DNA of 64,000 nt from Comamonas granuli NBRC 101663 (lineage in GTDB: Bacteria; Pseudomonadota; Gammaproteobacteria; Burkholderiales; Burkholderiaceae_C). The DNA lies in NCBI RefSeq assembly GCF_000739995.1, contig NZ_BBJX01000004.1, forward strand, positions 248,001-312,000, written 5' to 3'. The stretch's first letter is position 1; the number at the start of each line of letters is the position of its first letter. Below are positions 28,777 to 40,381 of this stretch, piece by piece. Position numbers and translations under genes: made by a program. Below the pieces are notes generated by a model. That model saw nothing but the letters and a program-made list of their open reading frames with translations, made no database searches and was not told the origin of the DNA.

Positions 28777-29712
28777 ATGACCCATCTGATCCTGCACCAC
28801 TATCCGATGTCACCGTTCGCCGAGAAGATCCGCTGCGTGCTGGGCTTCAAGAACCTGGCCTGGAAGTCGGTCATCATCCCCAGCGTGGCGCCCAAGCCCG
28901 ACGTGGTGGCCCTCACCGGCGGCTACCGCAAGACGCCCATCCTGCAGATCGGCGCCGACATCTATTGCGACACGGCGCTGATCTGCCAGGTGCTGGAGCA
29001 CGAGCAGCCCGAGCCCGCGCTGTTCCCGCCGCACCTCCAGGGCGTCTCGCGCGTGTTCGCGCAGTGGGCCGACAGCACGCTGTTCTGGGCCGCCATGGCC
29101 TACAGCCTGCAGCCGCGCGGCGCGGCCGAGCTGTTCGCCAGCGTGCCGCCCGAGGCGGGCAAGGCCTTCGCCGAGGACCGCCGCGAGATGAGCACGGGCA
29201 TGCTGCGCCTGCGCCCGGCGGATGCCACGGCGGCCTACCGCTCCTACCTGCGGCGCATCGCCCACATGGTGGAGGAGCACGACTTCCTGTTCGGCGCCGA
29301 GCCCTGCGTGGCCGACTTCGCCGCCTACCACCCGCTGTGGTTCACGCGCACGCGCGTGCCCTCCCTGGCCGGCATCTTCGAGCCCGTGCCCGCCGTGCTG
29401 GAGTGGATGGACCGCATCGCCGCCCTGGGCCAAGGCCGCATGGAGAAGTTCAGCTCCGGCGACGCCATCGCCGTGGCCGCCAGCGCCGAGCCCGCGCCGC
29501 TGCAGGGCGAGGTGTTCCAGGACGAGCACGGCATTCCGCTGGGCAGCCCCGTTACCGTGGCGGCCGAGAGCTTTGGCCAGGAGCCCACGGCGGGTGAACT
29601 GGTGGCCGCCACGCGCACGCGCTACACGCTGCGCCGCACCGACCCGCGCGCGGGCACGGTGCATGTTCACTTCCCCCGGATTGGCTACGTATTGAGAAAG
29701 GCAGAGCAATGA
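28777..29712 (+). CDS. Glutathione S-transferase family protein
   Basis: A 311-residue protein with an N-terminal thioredoxin-like GST domain (YPMSPFAEKIRCVLGFKNL, then GGYRKTPILQIGADIYCDT) and an all-helical second domain. At 311 residues it exceeds the usual 200-230; about 70 extra residues at the C-terminus are of unknown role. It overlaps the next SDR gene by 4 bases. Detoxification of electrophiles formed or handled by the neighbouring reductases would fit the context. Confidence 0.88.
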   Translation: MTHLILHHYPMSPFAEKIRCVLGFKNLAWKSVIIPSVAPKPDVVALTGGYRKTPILQIGADIYCDTALICQVLEHEQPEPALFPPHLQGVSRVFAQWADSTLFWAAMAYSLQPRGAAELFASVPPEAGKAFAEDRREMSTGMLRLRPADATAAYRSYLRRIAHMVEEHDFLFGAEPCVADFAAYHPLWFTRTRVPSLAGIFEPVPAVLEWMDRIAALGQGRMEKFSSGDAIAVAASAEPAPLQGEVFQDEHGIPLGSPVTVAAESFGQEPTAGELVAATRTRYTLRRTDPRAGTVHVHFPRIGYVLRKAEQ

Positions 29713-30611
29713 TCGACGACTTCAAGGGCAAGACCGCGGTGCTGACGGGCGCGGGCTCGGGTTTCGGGCTGGAGTGCGCGCGCATCGGCGCGCGCCTGGG
29801 CATGAACCTGGTGCTGGTGGACGTGCAGCAGGACGCGCTGGACGCCGCCGCCGCCGAGGCGCAGGCCGCGGGCAGCGCGGTGCTGGCGCGGCGCGTCGAT
29901 GTCTCCAGCGCGGCGCAGATGGAGCAACTGGCCCAGGACGTGGCCCAGCGCTTTGGCGCGCCGCACCTGGTGTTCAACAACGCGGGCGTGGGCTCGGGCG
30001 GCCTGGTCTGGGAAAACAGCGTGCGCGACTGGGAGTGGGTGCTGGGCGTGAACCTGTGGGGCGTGATCCACGGCGTGCGCCTGTTCACCCCCCTGATGCT
30101 GGCCGCCGCCCAGGCCGATCCGTCCTGGCGCGGCCACATCGTCAACACCGCCAGCATGGCGGGCCTGCTCACGCCGCCCAACATGGGCGTGTACAACGTG
30201 ACCAAGCACGCCGTGGTCAGCCTGTCGGAGACGCTGTACCAGGACCTGCGCCTGGTGAGCGACCAGATCGGCGCCAGCGTGCTGTGCCCGTACTTCGTGC
30301 CCACGGGCATCAGCCACAGCGAGCGCAACCGCCCGTCCAGCATGGCCGACGAGAAGCCCACCAAGAGCCAGCTCATCGGCCAGGCCATGACGGACAAGGC
30401 CGTCACCAGCGGCAAGGTGACGGCGGCCGAGGTGGCGCAGAAGGTGTTCGACGCCGTCGCGGCAGACCAGTTCTACATCTTCAGCCACCCCAAGGCGCTG
30501 GGCAATGTGCAAAGCCGCATGGAGAGCATCCTGCGCGCCGAGAACCCGGCCGACCCCTTCCTCGAGCGCCCCGAGGTGGGCGCGCAACTGCGCGCGGCAC
30601 TGCGCAGCTAA
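29709..30611 (+). CDS. SDR family oxidoreductase
   Basis: A 300-residue short-chain dehydrogenase with TGAGSGFG (cofactor loop), NNAG, and YNVTKHA (active site). Its sequence suits the group with longer C-termini that act on bulky alcohols or ketones. ATG overlaps the GST stop by 4 bases. Its TAA overlaps the TAG of the convergent Sel1-like gene by two bases, so the genes end inside each other. Confidence 0.92.
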   Translation: MIDDFKGKTAVLTGAGSGFGLECARIGARLGMNLVLVDVQQDALDAAAAEAQAAGSAVLARRVDVSSAAQMEQLAQDVAQRFGAPHLVFNNAGVGSGGLVWENSVRDWEWVLGVNLWGVIHGVRLFTPLMLAAAQADPSWRGHIVNTASMAGLLTPPNMGVYNVTKHAVVSLSETLYQDLRLVSDQIGASVLCPYFVPTGISHSERNRPSSMADEKPTKSQLIGQAMTDKAVTSGKVTAAEVAQKVFDAVAADQFYIFSHPKALGNVQSRMESILRAENPADPFLERPEVGAQLRAALRS

Positions 30612-31867
30612 TCCCTGCCCGCAGCGCGCCAGCGCGCGGGCAGCAGGTCGTACAGCGGCGTGGGGTCGCGCACATAGAGCTGCGGGCTCACCGCGGGCAG
30701 CGTGGGCAGCGGCGCGACCAGGGCCTTGCTGCCGTCCTCGCGTTCCACGTCCAGGGCGGCCAGTTGCTGCATCCAGGCGATGTCCACGCCCCCTGCCGGG
30801 CCGGGGTGGGCGTAGATCAGGCCCAGCATGTGCTGCGCGGGCCGGCTGCCCGCGGCCGCGGCGACCTGGTAGAGCCGGATGGCCTCGGCGTAGTTGGCGG
30901 GCACGCCGTCGCCCCGGTGGTAGCGGCGCGCAAGCAGGAACCAGTCCTGCGCCGTGCGCGCCGCGGGCGGGCGGCGCTCGCTGTCCATGCTTTGCAGGCG
31001 CTCGGCAAGCCGCTGGGCATTGACCGCGGCGGCGGGCGAGCGCGCCTGCGCACGGCGAAACAGCTCCAGCGCCTCGGGCAGGCGCCCCTGCGACACGCTT
31101 TCCAGCCCGAGTTCGACCAGGGCCTGCGCATCCCCAGCCTGGGCGGCGCGCGCGAGCAAGGCATGGGCTGGCAGGCCCGGGGCGGCGGGGGAAGCACCCG
31201 GGGGCTGCGGCTGGGCGATCTGCAGAGGTGTCTGGCGCGCCTGCACCAGCCATTCCAGGTAGAGCGCGCGCCCGGCATCGGCGCTGCGCAACTGCGCGAT
31301 GAAGGGGCGTGCTGCCGCCGGGTTGGGCGGCGGGGTGCAGCCGTCGATGCGGCACCAGGCAAGCCCGGCGGGGGCCAGGGGCTCGCCCAGCGCACGGGCG
31401 CGCTCAAACCATTGTTCGGCCTGGGGCGCATCCACCGGGCCGCCCCTGCCGTGCAGGGCCAGCAGGCCCAGCGTCCAGGCGGCGCGGGCTGCCTGGCGCT
31501 CGCTGGCGCTGCCGCGCTTGCCCGGGCGGCTGGCGCTGGCGCGCAACTGGGCGATGTCCCTGGCCAGGGTCGGATCCTGCTCCGGCAGCACCGACAGGGG
31601 TTCGGGCTGCAATGCGCCGGCGGGTTCGAGCGCGGGTGCCGGACCGGCGCCGGGGGCTTGCAGCGGCTCGGGCCGGGGCAGCTCCAGGGGTGGCAGGGCA
31701 GGCGGGCGCGGCGGGGGCATTTCCAGCCGCGGCATTTCCTGCGCGGCGGCACGGGCGGGCGTGGCGCCGGGCGCCCAGGCCAGCAGCAGCCCACAGCAGG
31801 CCGCTAGCCAGGCTGCGGTGGCGCCGCGTGCGCAGGCCGGCGCGGGGACGGCAAAAGGGCAGGGCAT
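30608..31867 (-). CDS. Secreted Sel1/TPR-like repeat protein of the amyloid-like locus
   Basis: A 419-residue exported protein. Residues of about 1-41 are a signal peptide (cleavage near PARAAA), followed by a Pro-rich linker of about 60 residues. Helical repeats of Sel1/TPR type cover about 110-400; clearest are LGLLALHGRGGPVDAPQAE and ARRYHRGDGVPANYAEAIRLY. ATG at 31867 follows aaggaaaag. It is the last gene of the leftward set containing the CsgG-like protein, so a periplasmic chaperone or scaffold for export is plausible. No exact family recognised. Confidence 0.8.
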   Translation of the reverse strand: MPCPFAVPAPACARGATAAWLAACCGLLLAWAPGATPARAAAQEMPRLEMPPPRPPALPPLELPRPEPLQAPGAGPAPALEPAGALQPEPLSVLPEQDPTLARDIAQLRASASRPGKRGSASERQAARAAWTLGLLALHGRGGPVDAPQAEQWFERARALGEPLAPAGLAWCRIDGCTPPPNPAAARPFIAQLRSADAGRALYLEWLVQARQTPLQIAQPQPPGASPAAPGLPAHALLARAAQAGDAQALVELGLESVSQGRLPEALELFRRAQARSPAAAVNAQRLAERLQSMDSERRPPAARTAQDWFLLARRYHRGDGVPANYAEAIRLYQVAAAAGSRPAQHMLGLIYAHPGPAGGVDIAWMQQLAALDVEREDGSKALVAPLPTLPAVSPQLYVRDPTPLYDLLPARWRAAGRD

Positions 31868-31978
31868 GGGCTTTTCCTTCGGTGCGGTGGCGCGGTGCAA
31901 GGGGGCGCCCTGCCGCCCCGCGCCGCATGCCGAGCGGGGGCGTGGCAGGGCATGCGGTTGGGAGCGGCAGGGACGCCG

Positions 31979-33712
31979 TCATCGCGTCTTGGCCGGAGTG
32001 GCGGGAGCGGCTGCGGGAGCAGGAGCGGCGGGCGGCGGTGCGCGCTTGGCCACGACCTGCCAGTGGACGCTGCCGCGCGCAAAGCCCTGGGGCCCCAGGC
32101 CCTGGCTGAATCCCTGGGCCACGTCGTCGAGCGAGCGGTAGCCCTGGAGCTGGGTGAGGGCGGCGCCCTGCAGCGGTGCGGGCAGGCGGGTGTACGGGTC
32201 GGTCTCGCTGGCGAAGCAGCCGACCTGCTCCGTGCCGGGCTTGCCGGTGTCGAGGATGAATGCCGGGTTGGGCGTCATCCAGTCAGGAATGCGCACGGCG
32301 AGGTGGGCCGACACCAGGGCCTTGGGGTTGACGGAGTTGGGCAGCAGGCGCATCACATTGCCCTGTGCGTCCTGGAAGTAGCAGTACAGGTAGGACGTGC
32401 GCGAGACGGTGGCGGAGAGGAACACCTGGTCGCCCTCCTCGAAGGCCGGGCGCTCGCCCGCGGGCAGGGGGTTCTCGATCTGCAGCTCGACGCGCGTGGT
32501 GCTGTCCGCTGCCGCCACGGCCGGCAGGGGCGCGGCGCCCGGGGGCGTGGTTCCCGGGGCGTCGAGCTGCTGGCTGTTCCAGCCCACGCGCGAGAGCGTG
32601 CCCGAGGGCGAGAGCGTGACGAAGTTGCGCAGCGCGCGCTCGTAGGTGGTGAAGTCCAGCACGCCCGAGACGACGATGCCGCGGTCGGCCTGGAAGCGCG
32701 CCAGCGCAGTGCGCAGCTCCGGGCTTTCGGTGCTCAGGGCCTCGGTGTCGGGCGGCAGGTAGCCCTGGCGGGCCAGCGCGCTTTGCACCAGGCGCATCTG
32801 CCCCTCGGGGCCGCTTTCGTCGTACCACTCGCGCATCTGGCGCTGGAAGTCGGGGTGCGTCTGGTCCAGGGTCAGGCACTGCCAGTAGGGCACGCGCGCC
32901 CACTTGCCCACGAGCTCGATGGTGCCCAGGTCGATCAGCGTGCGCATGGCGCCGCCTGCGCCCTGGGTGTAGTCCCGCCCGACGTTGAACTTGACGCCGT
33001 AGCTGCCGATGCGCCCGGCCACGTCCAGCCCCTGGCCCGCGCCGCCGATGATGACCTCGTTGGCCGAGTCCAGCCCCGGGATCAGCGTGCGCGTGCGAAA
33101 GTCTCCCAGGTGCAGCTCCAGCCCGATGACGGTGGCATTGCGGCTGGCGCTGTAGCCCGTGTCGAGGCGGCTCGCGGAGGTGCCCACGTCGAAGCGGCTG
33201 CCGATGACGTTCTGGTCCACATACGCAACGGCGCCCGAGAAGTACAGCGCCGGGCGCTGCAACTGCATCTGGTTGTTGTTGAGCAGGATGGTGGTGAGGT
33301 TTTGCACCGTGTCCTGGCGCGCGATGTCCACCTCGTAATCCACGAAGCGGAAGGCGTTGGACAGGCGCGACATCTGCGACAGCGCGGTGACGATCATGTC
33401 CTTGGAGGCGACCGGCACGCGGCTGGAGTAGTCGGGGATCTGCTTGCTCGTGATCAGCGTGGGCGGCAGTTGCGCCTCGCGCAGCATGTGGTCCATGCAC
33501 ATCAGCGAGTCGGAAAAGCTGGAGATGGAGCGTGTGGGACGCACCACGGGGCGGTCCGACTGCGTGGCATAGGACTGGAATTTCGCGTCCTTGCGCACGT
33601 CCATGGGCGTGCTGCAGCCCTGCAGGGCGAGCAGGCCCGCCAGGCCCAGCCCGGCGCACAGCCTGCGCGCCGGGTGGGCGAGCAGGCGCTGGAATACGGC
33701 AGTGTGTGTCAT
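31979..33712 (-). CDS. CsgG/HfaB-like outer-membrane lipoprotein fused to peptidoglycan-binding and DUF4384-like domains
   Basis: A 577-residue lipoprotein. The signal ends ALQGC, with Cys33 as lipidated residue. Residues of about 44-281 resemble CsgG/HfaB curli-type export pores (a strand-rich stretch with YFSGAVAYVDQNV, closing GKWARVPYWQCL). Residues of about 302-366 look like a PG_binding_1 domain (RLVQSALARQGYLP, then ALARFQADRGI). Residues of about 406-505 match DUF4384 (FEEGDQVFLSATVSR, NVMRLLPNS). E. coli CsgG is about 277 residues, so this protein is about twice as long. It should form the outer-membrane export channel and hold it to the wall. Confidence 0.8.
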   Translation of the reverse strand: MTHTAVFQRLLAHPARRLCAGLGLAGLLALQGCSTPMDVRKDAKFQSYATQSDRPVVRPTRSISSFSDSLMCMDHMLREAQLPPTLITSKQIPDYSSRVPVASKDMIVTALSQMSRLSNAFRFVDYEVDIARQDTVQNLTTILLNNNQMQLQRPALYFSGAVAYVDQNVIGSRFDVGTSASRLDTGYSASRNATVIGLELHLGDFRTRTLIPGLDSANEVIIGGAGQGLDVAGRIGSYGVKFNVGRDYTQGAGGAMRTLIDLGTIELVGKWARVPYWQCLTLDQTHPDFQRQMREWYDESGPEGQMRLVQSALARQGYLPPDTEALSTESPELRTALARFQADRGIVVSGVLDFTTYERALRNFVTLSPSGTLSRVGWNSQQLDAPGTTPPGAAPLPAVAAADSTTRVELQIENPLPAGERPAFEEGDQVFLSATVSRTSYLYCYFQDAQGNVMRLLPNSVNPKALVSAHLAVRIPDWMTPNPAFILDTGKPGTEQVGCFASETDPYTRLPAPLQGAALTQLQGYRSLDDVAQGFSQGLGPQGFARGSVHWQVVAKRAPPPAAPAPAAAPATPAKTR

Positions 33713-33802
33713 GGTGTGCCCCCTTGGTCCCTTCGTGTCGTGGCTCTGTGTCTCAGGGCCCTGTGCTGGCGCGTGCCGGGCGCCGGCCCGTGTGCAGTGG
33801 TG

Positions 33803-34213
33803 CTAGTTGCAGACGTTCACGAGATCGCCGCGCAGCACGACGATCTGCTCCTTGGGCGAGCCGGCGGGCGTGGTGGCGGCCGTGGTGCTGCCTATGGTTT
33901 GCGTGCAGGTGGTCTTGAATCCGTCCGAGGTGGCGGTCGAGACGACGTCCTTGTTCGTCAGGATGTCACCGGGATCGCCCGAGAATGCCTTGGCCTCGTA
34001 GCGGGCGACGCGGGCCTTTTGCCACGCGGGCATGTCTGCCGGCGGGCTGATGTAGCCCGAGCGCGGTGCGGCGCCGTTGGGCAGCATCTGAATGGAGATC
34101 TTGCGGTCGAGGACCACCGGGTCCTCGCCAGGCGCGTTCTGCGCAAGGGCCCCCTGCAGGCAGGCCAATGCGCCCAGCGCGGTGCAGATCCAGGTTCGTG
34201 TGCGTGTGAGCAT
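33803..34213 (-). CDS. Small secreted protein of the amyloid-like locus
   Basis: A 136-residue protein with a signal peptide (residues 1-24, ending ALAQ) and two cysteines in the mature part, Cys103 and Cys135, that could form a disulfide. I do not recognise a family. ATG at 34213 follows an excellent ribosome site (aaggagg). Its position between the repeat protein and the CsgG-like pore, and its size, suggest an accessory part analogous to CsgE, CsgF or HfaD, but no sequence similarity was seen. Confidence 0.72.
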   Translation of the reverse strand: MLTRTRTWICTALGALACLQGALAQNAPGEDPVVLDRKISIQMLPNGAAPRSGYISPPADMPAWQKARVARYEAKAFSGDPGDILTNKDVVSTATSDGFKTTCTQTIGSTTAATTPAGSPKEQIVVLRGDLVNVCN

Positions 34214-34288
34214 GGCGAGACCTCCTTGATCCATGGGGAGCCGAAGCCCGGCCGCCAGGCGGCTGCAGGCTCCGGCACGGCGAGCCCA

Positions 34289-35008
34289 TCACCAGTGCGG
34301 GCGCTGGCAGCGTCCGTCGGCGCAGGGGTCGCGCGGTTCGTTGCAGGCATCGTTGGAGGCGATGTTCTGCGCGGCATGGCTGTTGGCGCCCAGAGCCTGG
34401 TTGGTCACCGTGGCATTGGTCAGGTAGGTGGCCTGCGAGGAATAGCCCGAGATCGTCACGTCGCCAAAATTCGACGAGAGATTCTGGGTTGCCAGTGCAT
34501 TGCTGCCATTGGCCAGGTTGGACACGCTGCTGTTGGTGGAGCCCACGTACTGGTTGGAATAGCCGGAGATCATGACCTTGCCGTTGTTGCTGGCCAGGTT
34601 CTGCAGGGCGTCGGCGTTGCCACCCATGGCCTTGTTTTCCACGTTGGTGTTGGTCAGGGCGCTGGTCTGGTAGGACTGGCCACGCGTATCGACGGTCACC
34701 TCGCCGGCGTTCGACGAGATGTTCTGGTTGGCAAAATCATCGCGGTTCACGGCTTCATTCCTGATGCTGCCGCCCACGGTGGTGGCCGACTGCTCGGAGT
34801 AGCCCTTGATCAAGATCTTGCCGGAGTTGCTGGCCACGTTCTGCAGCGCGTCGTTGTTCTCGTGCGAGGTGTTGGCCACCACGGTGCCGGAGATCGAGGC
34901 CATCTGCTTGGAGGTGCCGCTGATGGTGATGGATGCCGGACTCGTCGGCTGGGCTGCCATGGCAGCGGCGGCGATGGTGCTGAGAGCGAAAAGTGCAAGG
35001 GATTTCAT
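34289..35008 (-). CDS. Secreted repeat protein, candidate functional amyloid subunit
   Basis: A 239-residue protein with a signal peptide (about 1-19) and five tandem repeats of about 39 residues. The repeat reads roughly V-x-I-S-G-Y-S-x-Q, a short variable part, T-N-x-x-V-x-N-x-A-x-G-x-N-A, then A-x-Q-N-(L/I)-A-S-N-x-G. The Gln-Asn pairs fall at 56, 95, 136, 175 and 214, so the spacing is 39, 41, 39 and 39. Regular Asn, Gln and Gly resemble curlin repeats. The tail after residue 220 has three cysteines (222, 229, 234). Codons and composition are less GC-rich than neighbours. ATG follows gaagga. Confidence 0.82.
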   Translation of the reverse strand: MKSLALFALSTIAAAAMAAQPTSPASITISGTSKQMASISGTVVANTSHENNDALQNVASNSGKILIKGYSEQSATTVGGSIRNEAVNRDDFANQNISSNAGEVTVDTRGQSYQTSALTNTNVENKAMGGNADALQNLASNNGKVMISGYSNQYVGSTNSSVSNLANGSNALATQNLSSNFGDVTISGYSSQATYLTNATVTNQALGANSHAAQNIASNDACNEPRDPCADGRCQRPHW

Positions 35009-35406
35009 GGCGATTCCTTCAATGGTGAAGATCAAGGTCTGGCCGCATGCCGCCGGGGCGGCACGGGGCCCATCCGACGCCGCCGCAGGTGCCCTCACTG
35101 GCAGGACGTTCCATGCGGTTTCGTCTGGGAGTCAGTGTCGGCGCGGCGCGGACCCGCGCCAATGGCCTGTATGCGCTACCTCATGCATGCCTGCGGCGGG
35201 ACCGTGCAGGCCCGTGCGCCGGGGTCTGTGCGCACGGTTTGCCTGTGGCGCGTGGGTGGAATGGGCGTGCAGATTGGCCCCGCCAGAACGCGGTAGTTAC
35301 CGAATGCGAGCGATGTAACGTTTGATGTTTTGCGCTGTATCGCGTAGCAAAGGGGGGCAATTTCTTGTAACGTGGAACCAGACAGGTGGTTTTCGGAGAT
35401 AGCGCG
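35009..35406. promoter_or_regulatory. Divergent promoter region of amyloid-like and two-component genes
   Basis: This 398-bp gap separates the repeat-protein gene from the response regulator. It holds two exact direct copies of tgtaacgt (35314-35321 and 35366-35373), 52 bp apart, about five helical turns. A palindrome, ggtagttacc, lies at 35292-35301. The part next to the regulator is clearly lower in GC. These are candidate binding sites for the response regulator; no -10/-35 pair is convincing. No gene is seen in it. Confidence 0.5.
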
Positions 35407-36186
35407 ATGTCGATACCGCACACAGGGGCGCCAGACGCAGGCCCATTAGGTTCGAGCGAGGAAGGGCACATCGGAGCCTTTGCCTCGTACAGCAATCCAC
35501 CGTCCATCTGGCCGGACTTCCTCGTGGGGCAAGCGCAGGCCCCGGTGCGGGTGCTGGTGGTCGATGACGATGCCCACATGCGCACGGTCATCGCCCAGGA
35601 GCTGATGGCCGACCCGCGCACCCTGCTGGTGGCGCAGGCCGGCTCGCTGCGCGAAGCCCGGCGCCTGCTGCGCCAGCAGGAGGTGGATGTCCTGCTCGTG
35701 GACCTGAACCTGTGCGATGGCTCGGGCCTGGAGCTCATCCGCTACGCCAAGACCGTGCGGCCCAGCGTCGAGATCATCGTCATCTCCGTCATGGACACGG
35801 AGCAGGAGGCGATCCGCGCCTTCGAGCTCGGCGCCACCGGCTACCTGGTGAAGAACTCCTGGTTCGGCAACTTTGCGCAGGCCGTGCTGCAGGTGGCCAA
35901 TGGCGGGGCGTCCATCACGCCCGGCCTGGCGCGGCGCCTGCTGCATTCCTTCGACCGCGTGCGCACAGACGGCGGCGCGCGCGGCATGGAGGGCGAAAAG
36001 CTCTCTGACCGCGAGAAGGAAGTGCTGCGCATGGTGGCCAATGGCTACGTCAGCGCCGAGATCGGCCAGCGCCTGGCCATCAGCAGCATGACGGTCAACA
36101 CCCACATCCGGAACATCTACCGCAAGCTGCACGTCCGCACCCGCGCCCAGGCCGTGAGCTTCGCCTCGCTGTGGGGTTTGCTGTAG
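35407..36186 (+). CDS. NarL/FixJ family response regulator
   Basis: A 259-residue regulator. A 45-residue N-terminal extension precedes the receiver domain (acidic residues in VVDDDAH, phospho-acceptor Asp99 in LLVDLNL, Ser in VISV, Lys in YLVKN). A LuxR-type helix-turn-helix lies near 195-255 (LSDREKEVLRMVANGY, TVNTHIRNIYRKL). ATG at 35407 follows cggag; a GTG at 35386 is less likely. It is divergent from the repeat-protein operon, which is the obvious target, and is followed after 10 bp by its kinase. Confidence 0.93.
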   Translation: MSIPHTGAPDAGPLGSSEEGHIGAFASYSNPPSIWPDFLVGQAQAPVRVLVVDDDAHMRTVIAQELMADPRTLLVAQAGSLREARRLLRQQEVDVLLVDLNLCDGSGLELIRYAKTVRPSVEIIVISVMDTEQEAIRAFELGATGYLVKNSWFGNFAQAVLQVANGGASITPGLARRLLHSFDRVRTDGGARGMEGEKLSDREKEVLRMVANGYVSAEIGQRLAISSMTVNTHIRNIYRKLHVRTRAQAVSFASLWGLL

Positions 36187-36196
36187 CGGCTGCGCC

Positions 36197-37162
36197 ATGG
36201 CCCCGGTGCATGTGCTCAAGCGCCGCCTGTGGCTTGCCGGGCTGGTGTGCTGCCTGCTGATCGTGCTGGAGCTGTGGCTGGACCGGCCGTCCCCGGTGGG
36301 CGGTCTGGTGCCTGCCCCGGCAGCCTGGCTGCTGCGGCTGGAGGTCAAGACCCTGCTGTCCCTGATCCTGCTGGGCATGGTGCTCTACGGTCTGTGGTAC
36401 GTGTACCGGCAGCAGGTGTTCATCGATCAGGCGCTGGAGGAAGAGCGCCGCCGCATTGCCCTGGAGCTGCATGACGGCGTGGGCTTTCAGCTCGTGCAGG
36501 CCCTGGCGCAGTTCAAGGGTCCGGAGGATGACGTGCGGGACATGCGCCTGGCCCTTGAGCAGGCCCTGATCGAGCTGCACGCCGCGGTGGACCTCATGCA
36601 GCCCGAGTCCTTCAACCTAATCGAACGTATGGCCGTGCTGCGCTACCGCATCCAGCCGACCTTCGAGCGCCAGGGCATCGAACTGGTCTGGCGCGTGGCA
36701 GGTGATCTCGATACCTCGTGGCTGCCGCCGCAAAGCACGGTGCACGTGCTCAAGATCGTGCAGGAGGCGCTGGGTAATGTGCTGCGCCATGCCCAGGCCA
36801 GCCGCGTGGAGGTGCTGTTGCACCCTTTGCCCGGTCCCTGCGGATTGCTGCTGGACGTGCGCGACAACGGGCGCGGCACCGGCACGGTCCCGGCGAACGC
36901 GGCGGCGGGCCATGGTCTGATGGGTATGCGCAGGCGCGCCCAATGGCTGGGGGGTACGCTGCAAATCATCAGCCGACCGGCCGTGCAGGGCACCTGTATC
37001 CGCCTGGCCGTCACGCGCCAGGGCTTGCCCGAGCTGCGGCGCAAACTCCTTCCGCTGCCTGCGGCCATGCGCGCGGTGTCGCCCCGCAGGGCGGCGCAGG
37101 GGCTGCGCGCCATCCGGTCGCGGGCGCGCTCCTGGCCTACCCGGCCGCCCGCCGCGGGGTGA
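36197..37162 (+). CDS. Sensor histidine kinase, NarX/DegS-type (HisKA_3)
   Basis: A 321-residue inner-membrane kinase. Two hydrophobic helices (about 11-28 and 52-70) bracket a periplasmic loop of only some 20 residues, so it may sense within the membrane or depend on a partner. The phospho-acceptor is His92 in RRRIALELHDGVG. The ATPase domain shows EALGNVLRHA, VRDNGRG and GHGLMGMRRRA. A basic tail of about 50 residues follows. It partners the response regulator encoded 10 bp upstream. Confidence 0.92.
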   Translation: MAPVHVLKRRLWLAGLVCCLLIVLELWLDRPSPVGGLVPAPAAWLLRLEVKTLLSLILLGMVLYGLWYVYRQQVFIDQALEEERRRIALELHDGVGFQLVQALAQFKGPEDDVRDMRLALEQALIELHAAVDLMQPESFNLIERMAVLRYRIQPTFERQGIELVWRVAGDLDTSWLPPQSTVHVLKIVQEALGNVLRHAQASRVEVLLHPLPGPCGLLLDVRDNGRGTGTVPANAAAGHGLMGMRRRAQWLGGTLQIISRPAVQGTCIRLAVTRQGLPELRRKLLPLPAAMRAVSPRRAAQGLRAIRSRARSWPTRPPAAG

Positions 37163-37224: not shown

Positions 37225-37285
37225 ATCAAAAAATGGCTGCAGCGCTTATCCATCAAGCGCAAGCAGCTATCAATAAGATAGCAAT
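37225..37285 (+). repeat. Dispersed AAGCGC/AGCTAT repeat, full copy
   Basis: The copy runs from ATCAAAAAATGGCTGCAGCG through GCGCTTATCCATCAAGCGC to AGCAGCTATCAATAAGATAG. The hairpin arms GCGCTT and AAGCGC flank a 7-base loop. It lies between the kinase gene and the convergent DUF1566 gene and ends at that gene's stop codon. Confidence 0.85.
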
Positions 37286-37926
37286 CAAGGGTAGGGGCGT
37301 ATGAGCCGCAGCGGCAGGCGGCTGTCCTTGTGCACGGGGCTGGACTCGCCGCTGCCCATGTCCACGGCCCAGCCCTGGCGCGTGCCGATGCGGCTGGTCA
37401 CGCCGCCCACGCTGCCGTGCTGCACGCTGCCGTAGTCGTACATATTGACGGCGCCGGTGTGGATGCGCGAGGTGCCCGACCAATGCCAGGTGCCGGGCGC
37501 GGCCGGGAACAGCGCCGGGTCCACCCCCGGCGGCGTGGCACGGCGCTGCACCAGGTGGCGCAGCTCCAGCGCGCGCGGCAGGCGCCAGGCCACGCCCTCG
37601 GCTTCGCTGCGCGCACGCGCGGCGGCCAGGGCTTCGGCGCGGTCGAACAGCAGCGGCAGCCCGGCGCAGGTCTTGCCGTTCCAGTGCGTGCCTTCCAGGC
37701 AGCGCGCCCAGGCCACCTTGGCGCGCGCATCCAGCACCAGCGTGCCGTCGGCCGACACCTCCAGGCGCTCCGCGGCGGCGGGTGCGGGGCGGTCGCCGTC
37801 GGCATCGTCCTCGGGTTCGCGCGGCTGGGGCAGGGCCAGGGTGCTGGCCAGCAGCAGCGCGCCGGCCAGCAGCAGATGCCGGGCCCGCCGGGGCGGGGCA
37901 GGGCGCAGGGGAGCGGGTGCGGGCAT
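37285..37926 (-). CDS. Exported DUF1566 (Lcl C-terminal) domain protein
   Basis: A 213-residue protein with a signal sequence (hydrophobic run to about residue 33) and a DUF1566-type domain, marked by the opening VAWARCLEGTHWNGKTCAG, the central WRLPRALELRHLV and the closing WAVDMGSG. Such domains occur in surface and adhesion proteins of many bacteria; the role is unknown. ATG at 37926 has a very good ribosome site (gaggagg). It is divergent from tex. Confidence 0.75.
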   Translation of the reverse strand: MPAPAPLRPAPPRRARHLLLAGALLLASTLALPQPREPEDDADGDRPAPAAAERLEVSADGTLVLDARAKVAWARCLEGTHWNGKTCAGLPLLFDRAEALAAARARSEAEGVAWRLPRALELRHLVQRRATPPGVDPALFPAAPGTWHWSGTSRIHTGAVNMYDYGSVQHGSVGGVTSRIGTRQGWAVDMGSGESSPVHKDSRLPLRLIRPYP

Positions 37927-37944
37927 GGCGGCCTCCTCGGTATG

Positions 37945-37966
37945 CGCGCTGGCAGCTATGGCAAAC
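37945..37966 (+). repeat. Partial copy of dispersed repeat
   Basis: The segment gcgctggcagctatggcaaa matches the right half of the dispersed repeat. It lies in the short gap between the DUF1566 gene and tex. The left hairpin arm is missing. Confidence 0.5.
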
Positions 37967-37996
37967 TCGCGCGCTTCGTGTTTCAGACGACGGTCC

Positions 37997-40381
<2,385 letters not shown>

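Follow-up and report, generated by a model that had tools for sequence, protein, structure and literature searches.

The window, a stretch of 64,000 nucleotides from Comamonas granuli NBRC 101663, contains a cassette of six neighbouring genes at positions 30608-37162, four of them leftward (minus strand) and two divergent (plus strand), just where a first-pass annotation of this DNA had placed four leftward genes with a NarL-type regulator and kinase diverging from them. The leftward genes encode a putatively secreted repeat protein of 239 residues (34289-35008), a small, likewise putatively secreted two-cysteine protein of 136 residues (33803-34213), a lipoprotein of 577 residues (31979-33712) and, as the last of the group, a secreted Sel1/TPR-like protein (30608-31867; Pfam Sel1, E 1.6e-9); signal-peptide-like N-termini were judged by eye. 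The divergent genes encode a NarL/LuxR-type response regulator (approximately 35407-36186; Pfam Response_reg, E 4.9e-20, and GerE, E 3.7e-19), whose start is uncertain and is set at 35524 by our own gene caller, and a histidine kinase of the NarL/UhpB-partner type (36197-37162), in which HATPase_c (E 1.3e-9) reaches 38.9 bits against a Pfam cut-off of 26.4 and HisKA_3 (E 2.7e-4) falls just under its cut-off with 21.8 bits against 24. We do not count as part of the cassette an Lcl_C gene at 37285-38010 or the SDR and tex-like genes that flank it, although all of these were considered.

The cassette was compared with 80 related loci, which are the best 80 of 262 and for that reason biased to close relatives; genes outside the window were called with our own codon-usage script. 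The genes for the repeat protein and the two-cysteine protein precede the lipoprotein gene in all 71 loci with enough sequence, the Sel1 gene follows it in 74 of 74 eligible loci, and among 63 eligible loci the regulator is divergent in 56 and regulator and kinase both diverge in 51, with the reservations that the HMMs for Sel1, regulator and kinase are less specific than those for the other three genes and that the counts are not independent events because the loci are mutually related. From these counts the grouping of the six genes is not due to chance, and the cassette is thus kept together in relatives, a point on which the first-pass annotation had asked for a check. The best 80 of 262 loci include representatives of Acidovorax, Delftia, Polaromonas, Comamonas and Hydrogenophaga, and looser versions of the cassette occur in Azospirillum and other proteobacteria. 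One of our alignments (A4) includes rows from loci L171 and L020, so that matches to those two loci arise by construction.

Two conserved elements lie upstream of the repeat gene on the minus strand. GTTAC-N-ACTACC (35292-35319, approximately 290-310 bp before the gene) is a candidate site for the regulator, and ACTG[AG]N(1-4)[CT]CAGAC (35123-35136, approximately 130 bp before the gene) may likewise be functional. Among 75 upstream regions, which are mutually related and so do not give independent counts, ACTACC is found in 34 (shuffle mean 4.5, maximum 7), GTTAC-N(5-30)-ACTACC in 12 (shuffle mean 0.1) and ACTG[AG]N(1-4)[CT]CAGAC in 12 (shuffle mean 0.03, maximum 1).

The repeat protein contains five Q-N-x-x-S-N cores at spacings of 39, 41, 39 and 39 residues, and its self-identity at lag 39 is 0.302, a value above anything that the best lag gave in 1000 shuffles of its residues (maximum 0.242); the regular repeats noted earlier exceed what shuffling produces. 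AlphaFold predicts a beta-solenoid of 20 regularly arranged strands, with a pLDDT of 85 for the best model and 89-96 in its core, two of the five models lying at pLDDT 84-85 and three at 69-72. AlphaFold is sometimes overconfident on repeats. A Foldseek search with the solenoid model returned nothing at E 1e-3 or better, amyloid folds included; FapC of the Pseudomonas Fap system was the second match but a weak one (E 3.8e-3, probability 0.12), and CsgA had E 0.62. The Fap system exports through FapF, a pore different from the one proposed here. When the repeat family (39-member alignment) was compared with Pfam and NCBIfam, with 25 of the 49 families in the Pfam scan examined, only weak matches and no convincing family were found. 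The most frequent match, DIM, was rejected as the repeat family: it was found in 11 of 39 members with a best E of 0.0013, and in the row from the window it covers the signal peptide. The number of repeats differs among species and the length of the lipoprotein varies little, which corresponds to the pattern of variable repeat number and little-varying pore length reported for CsgA and CsgG (PMC3521004).

The two-cysteine protein, also recognised as small and secreted in the first-pass annotation, carries a C-terminal signature, C-x-Q-x-[VI]-G...QIVVLRGDLVNVC, that is conserved in 76 of 79 family members; both cysteines are invariant in the 26 chosen rows. This family (26-member alignment) gave only weak matches and no known family in Pfam and NCBIfam. 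Among the families listed in the scans of the two-cysteine and repeat proteins, the other matches below E 0.01 were SPV1_VP4, BRANT and YqgE, each in 1 to 4 members.

The lipoprotein has a lipobox cysteine at residue 33, which does not vary among the 60 rows aligned out of 78 found, followed by a CsgG-like domain (residues approximately 34-280; 32873-33613), a PG_binding_1 domain (residues 305-358; 32639-32800; E 3.1e-7, 30.9 bits against a Pfam cut-off of 23) and a DUF4384 domain (residues 424-504; 32201-32443; E 1.7e-13, 50.9 bits against 27), all on the minus strand. Its description in the first-pass annotation as a CsgG/HfaB-like lipoprotein with extra domains is borne out by the Pfam matches for the extra domains and by hhalign and Foldseek for the CsgG relationship, which Pfam misses. 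In hhalign with 67 family members the lipoprotein was matched to HfaB at 97.6% (E 4e-12) and to CsgG at 96.6% (E 5e-10), and local and global modes gave 96.6-99.1% across runs. When the profile was built from just the 60 close relatives (Neff 1.7), the values were only 83.5% for HfaB and 11% for CsgG, i.e. the signal became strong only once distant members had joined the profile. The family HMM directly matched two of four HfaB proteins (E 7.6e-8 and 1.3e-7; the sets are very small) and did not match the other two at E 1e-3. The lipoprotein scores 12.8 bits (E 0.05) against the NCBIfam HfaB model NF037935, whose equivalog cut-off is 300 bits, and neither NF037935 nor the CsgG profile PF03783 matches anything in the genome at E 1e-3, the PF03783 control being positive in E. 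coli and three other genomes; PDB sequences searched with the single sequence of either the lipoprotein or the repeat protein showed no match below E 0.1. The resemblance to CsgG and HfaB lies below every curated cut-off in single-sequence searches and becomes visible only by profiles or structure.

The AlphaFold model of the lipoprotein is of moderate quality (pLDDT 71, pTM 0.50), and its putative membrane hairpins (168-191 and 224-241) are below pLDDT 50. In Foldseek the first 17 matches are all to CsgG (E 9.9e-7 to 3.1e-4; target-normalised TM-score 0.37-0.53, rmsd 8.4-14.5) and rank 18 is an unrelated enzyme (E 7.2e-4); the lack of a CsgG structural match, which would have spoken against the earlier reading, did not come about. 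Together, the profile and model comparisons support that the lipoprotein belongs to the CsgG superfamily by homology and fold. Using what we take to be the residue numbers of the constriction and hairpins in E. coli CsgG, the stretches aligned with the two membrane hairpins are of similar length in the cassette pores and the loop aligned with the constriction is absent, and the function of the channel may for this reason differ from that of CsgG.

These features also bear on an alternative in which the lipoprotein would resemble PelC, FlgT or LpoB and form a ring or scaffold but no protein channel of its own, and the repeat and two-cysteine proteins would be periplasmic envelope-coat or peptidoglycan-associated proteins. 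The core fold is common to PelC (E 2.5e-3, rmsd 5.6), a shorter chain whose target TM-score of 0.59 is above that of CsgG, and to FlgT (E 8.2e-3); moreover, the peptidoglycan-binding domain, the missing constriction loop and the proximity of distant relatives to OmpA-family genes (some annotated, some identified by eye) would fit a scaffold. Against this, the E-value for CsgG is better than that for PelC by approximately three orders of magnitude, the hairpin-aligned stretches are present at similar length, and the neighbourhood of the secreted repeat and two-cysteine genes, seen in 71 of 71 eligible loci, is comparable to that in curli and hfa loci. PelC is not known to have membrane hairpins. 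We consider a scaffold without a channel unlikely, yet the most serious of the alternatives.

A pore of the CsgG type could also serve a holdfast-type anchor, in which the exported proteins would tether a polysaccharide to the cell, the role that HfaA and HfaD have alongside HfaB in Caulobacterales. By profile, no described pore is closer than HfaB, which matches slightly better than CsgG and is in part hit directly by the family HMM, and both systems have two surface substrates per pore, putative ones in the cassette. On the other hand, the kinship of the substrates with HfaA and HfaD for which a profile check had been proposed was not found, the hhalign probability being at most 1.3% in all four pairs with two reference sequences each for HfaA and HfaD, named by their place beside hfaB; the genome has no HfaB match, as described above; and of the gene families common to 8 or more of the 80 loci, namely the six and four others, none of the four was recognised as a polysaccharide gene on unsystematic annotation. 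A comparison of the substrates with the small proteins of a second system also gave no match, the best being 13% over 28 residues in the N-terminal signal-peptide region. In a midpoint-rooted tree of a chosen subset of 43 rows, HfaB groups with CsgG, and the cassette pores form a branch apart from both (support 100/98), where the 14 rows labelled CsgG were so named for matching the CsgG or HfaB profile and are not proven curli pores. A holdfast-type role thus appears quite improbable. One of these CsgG rows (L144) seems by eye to have a C-terminal peptidoglycan-binding stretch as well, so that this domain is apparently not unique to the cassette branch.

The cassette and curli have in common the superfamily and fold of the pore lipoprotein, a secreted substrate with repeats rich in N, Q, G and S, and a LuxR-type regulator nearby. 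They differ in that the cassette repeats are approximately 40 residues, compared with approximately 22 in CsgA, that the cassette pore has the two extra domains and lacks the constriction-aligned loop, and that the cassette includes the two-cysteine and Sel1 proteins and a full two-component pair; scanning the cassette proteins with Pfam gave no CsgC match. Burkholderiales and Burkholderiaceae are reported to include true curli operons (PMC3521004, PMC12822426), but a diverged curli (csg) operon is already disfavoured and very improbable, given that profiles for CsgE (PF10627), CsgF (PF10614) and curlin repeats (PF07012 or X6QXGX2NX10) match nothing in the genome at E 1e-3 with positive controls in E. 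coli, extending genome-wide the earlier failure to recognise CsgE or CsgF, that 78 repeat proteins contain 3 copies of the minimal curli repeat, fewer than shuffles do (mean 7.5), and that the tree places the cassette pore apart from the CsgG plus HfaB side.

We favour as moderately probable that the six genes constitute a CsgG-type outer-membrane export cassette of new gene composition that exports a beta-solenoid fibre or coat protein. The first-pass annotation had proposed a regulated pathway for amyloid export; of this proposal the CsgG-superfamily pore protein, the repeats, now predicted to form a solenoid, the lack of CsgE and CsgF and the conserved gene set stand, whereas a match to an amyloid fold was not obtained at E 1e-3, and fibre and amyloid are putative labels for the repeat protein. 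In this model, the NarL-type two-component pair would turn on the leftward group, and the repeat and two-cysteine proteins would reach the periplasm via Sec. The lipoprotein would be sorted to the outer membrane and oligomerise into a CsgG-like channel, with the extra binding domain as its likely tether to peptidoglycan, and the DUF4384 domain and the Sel1 protein would work from within the periplasm. The repeat protein would exit unfolded and take up its beta-solenoid form of 40-residue repeats outside the cell, where the folded solenoids may stack to give a fibre or coat, with the two-cysteine protein as a minor subunit, a nucleator or a pore adaptor.

According to the literature consulted (PMC3521004, PMC6707917, PMC12822426 and PMC12520557), pores of the CsgG superfamily act in curli export and in the holdfast anchor; among the open-licence PMC titles listed, 20 of 124 for one search, none describes the present cassette, which is not proof of absence. 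In our judgement the chances are even that the cassette represents one version of an undescribed third branch within the CsgG superfamily, which parallels curli and holdfast and recurs in Beta- and Alphaproteobacteria. The core of this branch would combine a lipoprotein with CsgG and peptidoglycan-binding domains, in many cases also DUF4384, with solenoid repeat proteins and, in several versions, a two-cysteine partner, and the branch would have at least three gene compositions in the family of the window itself. Having lost the constriction loop, the pore would be a clampless channel exporting a new class of surface solenoid fibres. If so, the CsgG secretion route would extend to common environmental genera with substrates of their own, and the repeat proteins with their variable repeat number would be new candidates for self-assembly. 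The cassette would also offer a natural test of the purpose of the CsgG constriction, and it provides a testable function for proteins so far named only 'DUF4384 domain-containing protein', as in two annotated plasmid records.

The six genes that the first-pass annotation had placed in the window were borne out on re-examination, and we suggest that they most likely constitute a regulated CsgG-type export pathway in which the repeat protein would be the main substrate and the two-Cys protein its partner. Four genes are read leftward (minus strand), in the order repeat protein (34289-35008), two-Cys protein (33803-34213), pore lipoprotein (31979-33712) and Sel1 protein (30608-31867), and the NarL-type regulator and histidine kinase genes are read rightward (plus strand). 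In a contig scan, 262 relatives were confirmed, and the best 80 of the 262 were used for locus counts, restricted to loci whose contig extends far enough. Among these best 80, the repeat and two-Cys genes lie upstream of the pore gene on the same strand in 71/71 eligible loci, the Sel1 gene lies downstream of it in 74/74, and the regulator and kinase genes are divergent in 51 of 63 (regulator, 56 of 63), so that the genes are largely retained as a unit in these relatives; the exceptions include four Limnohabitans loci with a regulator downstream of the Sel1 gene.

By BLAST clustering of the same best 80 loci, the families common to at least eight loci were the six cassette genes (35-65 loci each) and four others (22, 16, 12 and 10 loci), the first two being tex-like and SDR, respectively, by likeness to window genes. 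In the window, an SDR gene (29709-30611) and a gene that we take to be tex-like (37997-40381) flank the cassette. Because these two families recur beside it (tex-like in 22/80, SDR-like in 16/80), the position between them suggests an old chromosomal site in part of the family. A gene for an Lcl_C-domain protein (37285-38010; Pfam E 3.3e-14) adjoins the kinase gene; a homologue lies close to the cassette in one relative (L019), and the Lcl_C family is absent from those common to at least eight of the 80 loci. The C. granuli genome (3.5 Mb, 100% complete by computation) holds a single match to the pore protein. Distribution within the genus is patchy, since among 25 other genomes of the genus a close pore (62-66% identity) is found in five and a distant one (29-30%) in three. 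The pore profile matches 80/200 family genomes at E 1e-3, many via the C-terminal domains alone, and 41/200 at E 1e-50 or better, counting the own genome and all pore types; the two-Cys profile matches 10/398 phylum and 7/300 order genomes in overlapping samples.

The claim that the pore protein is CsgG-like with extra domains gained support from profile comparison and fold prediction. Searches with the single sequence gave only PG_binding_1 and DUF4384 in Pfam and HfaB at E 0.05 in NCBIfam, and PF03783 had no match anywhere in the own genome at E 1e-3. With 60 close relatives alone, hhalign was weak, at 83.5% against four HfaB sequences and 11% against 14 CsgG-profile sequences; with 67 sequences, five distant members included, local mode gave 97.6% (HfaB), 96.6% (CsgG) and 98.0% (both combined), and the five distant members by themselves gave 97.7-98.7%. 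The cassette pore HMM matched two of four HfaB proteins (E 7.6e-8 and 1.3e-7) and gave no match to the other two at E 1e-3. A moderate AlphaFold2 model from 60 rows (pLDDT 71.3, pTM 0.50), in which the membrane part is poorly defined, has a predicted CsgG-like fold: in Foldseek against the PDB, CsgG fills ranks 1-17 (E 9.9e-7 to 3.1e-4), followed at rank 18 by a chitin-active enzyme (E 7.2e-4). The main rival explanation is that the protein forms a periplasmic ring or scaffold similar to PelC or LpoB and exports no protein; PelC matches the model at E 2.5e-3, with a target TM-score of 0.59 versus 0.37-0.53 for CsgG, the PelC chain being shorter.

A midpoint-rooted tree of 43 rows (14 CsgG-profile, four HfaB, 11 cassette pores, six other DUF4384 forms, five second-system and three third-type) separates CsgG-profile and HfaB rows from all others (support 100/98) and unites the cassette pores in a single group (100/100). 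In a 25-row alignment, the stretches that make up the pair of membrane hairpins in CsgG keep a similar length. The stretch that comes after the DxTGQ motif in CsgG, where we take the E. coli constriction residues Tyr51, Asn55 and Phe56 to lie, is missing from every one of the 11 cassette, DUF4384-trio and third-type rows; it is shortened in the single second-system row and in the four rows of HfaB. With this stretch missing, the cassette protein, if it forms a channel, should be without the aromatic clamp.

Returning to the export pathway, the putative main substrate has five cores in the window (spacing 39, 41, 39, 39) and a lag-39 self-identity of 0.302, against a maximum of 0.242 in 1000 shuffles. 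By a strict pattern, the 78 repeat proteins, the window's own included, have three cores in 44 cases, five in 12, seven in five, four in six, two in six, one in four and none in one, with spacing peaking at 38-41; the alignment consensus reads I-x-G-x-S-x-Q, then N-x-[AS], then A-x-Q-N-x-[AS]-S-N-x-G. Five AlphaFold2 models had mean pLDDT 85, 84, 72, 70 and 69, the best (85.2; core 89-96) having 20 regularly patterned strands; Foldseek found no confident match for it (tapirin E 3.4e-3, FapC 3.8e-3 at probability 0.12, CsgA 0.62). The curli minimal repeat does not occur in the window protein and is rarer across the family than in shuffles (3 vs 7.5). In the two-Cys protein, for which no Pfam or NCBIfam family was found, both Cys are invariant in 26/26 rows (24 chosen from 79 found plus two distant); the signature is present in 76/79 proteins, and a Cys lies at most one residue from the C-terminus in 79/79. 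Since repeat proteins too have conserved Cys (two C-terminal columns invariant in 39/39 aligned rows; at least two Cys after residue 20 in 75/78), the two predicted exported proteins may pair via disulfides, the candidates being those of the window (33803-34213 and 34289-35008) and of loci L026-L105.

Upstream of the repeat gene, ACTACC is present in 34/75 regions (shuffle mean 4.5, maximum 7), with position quartiles of 277 and 299 bp ahead of the start, and GTTAC-N(5-30)-ACTACC in 12/75 (shuffle mean 0.1). A second element, ACTG[AG]N(1-4)[CT]CAGAC, is present in 12/75 (shuffle mean 0.03), its quartiles lying at 128 and 139 bp. All these counts are inflated by the relatedness of the regions. 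The elements are candidates for operator and promoter sites.

Similar compositions occur more widely. Plasmid AZO_p4 of Azospirillum lipoferum (L171) encodes a repeat protein (repeat-protein HMM E 5.4e-8, small set) and a two-Cys homologue upstream of a DUF4384 pore, which is followed by an OmpA gene. Loci L192 and L194 (genomes G303 and G346) have a pore, a two-Cys protein, HMM-matched repeat proteins and, by eye, an OmpA-like gene; L195 (G055) has a pore, a two-Cys protein and repeats recognised by eye that the HMM does not match; and in L193 (G401) the two-Cys profile site is flanked by a small repeat protein (by eye) and a pore. The profile also matches G687 and G912, and neither substrate family was found adjoining the pore of A. 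ramasamyi (L170). Four genomes from the same family as the window carry a second CsgG-like cluster (pore at 4785-5927 in L172, 4189-5241 in L173, 4783-5961 in L174, 4820-6019 in L175). Its proteins, named by eye except the pore, are one small and one ~1050-1180 aa repeat protein, a ~130-140 aa protein with a terminal VENITV strand, the CsgG-like pore, which lacks the DUF4384 part, a Sel1-like protein, a second small repeat protein, one more small protein and an OmpA-like protein, with a zinc-ribbon protein in 3/4 clusters. In a third type (L024 6954-8549, L176 5692-7236, L177 4965-6716), a CsgG/DUF4384-type pore is preceded by a secreted protein of ~205-273 aa, with sigma-factor-like and anti-sigma-like genes next in L024 and L177 (all by eye).

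No description of the cassette was found by title in the open-licence literature searched, in part among the matches listed. The cassette differs from curli loci in that PF03783, curlin repeats, CsgE and CsgF were not found, and from the holdfast HfaABD system in that its pore falls short of the HfaB cut-off and HfaA/HfaD-like substrates were not found, the two-Cys protein aligning with neither HfaA nor HfaD. Computation bears out the conservation and the fold; beyond these, we infer that the cassette products would form a pore, be exported, assemble outside the cell and be amyloid in character; if the pore inference holds, the cassette works like the curli and holdfast systems.
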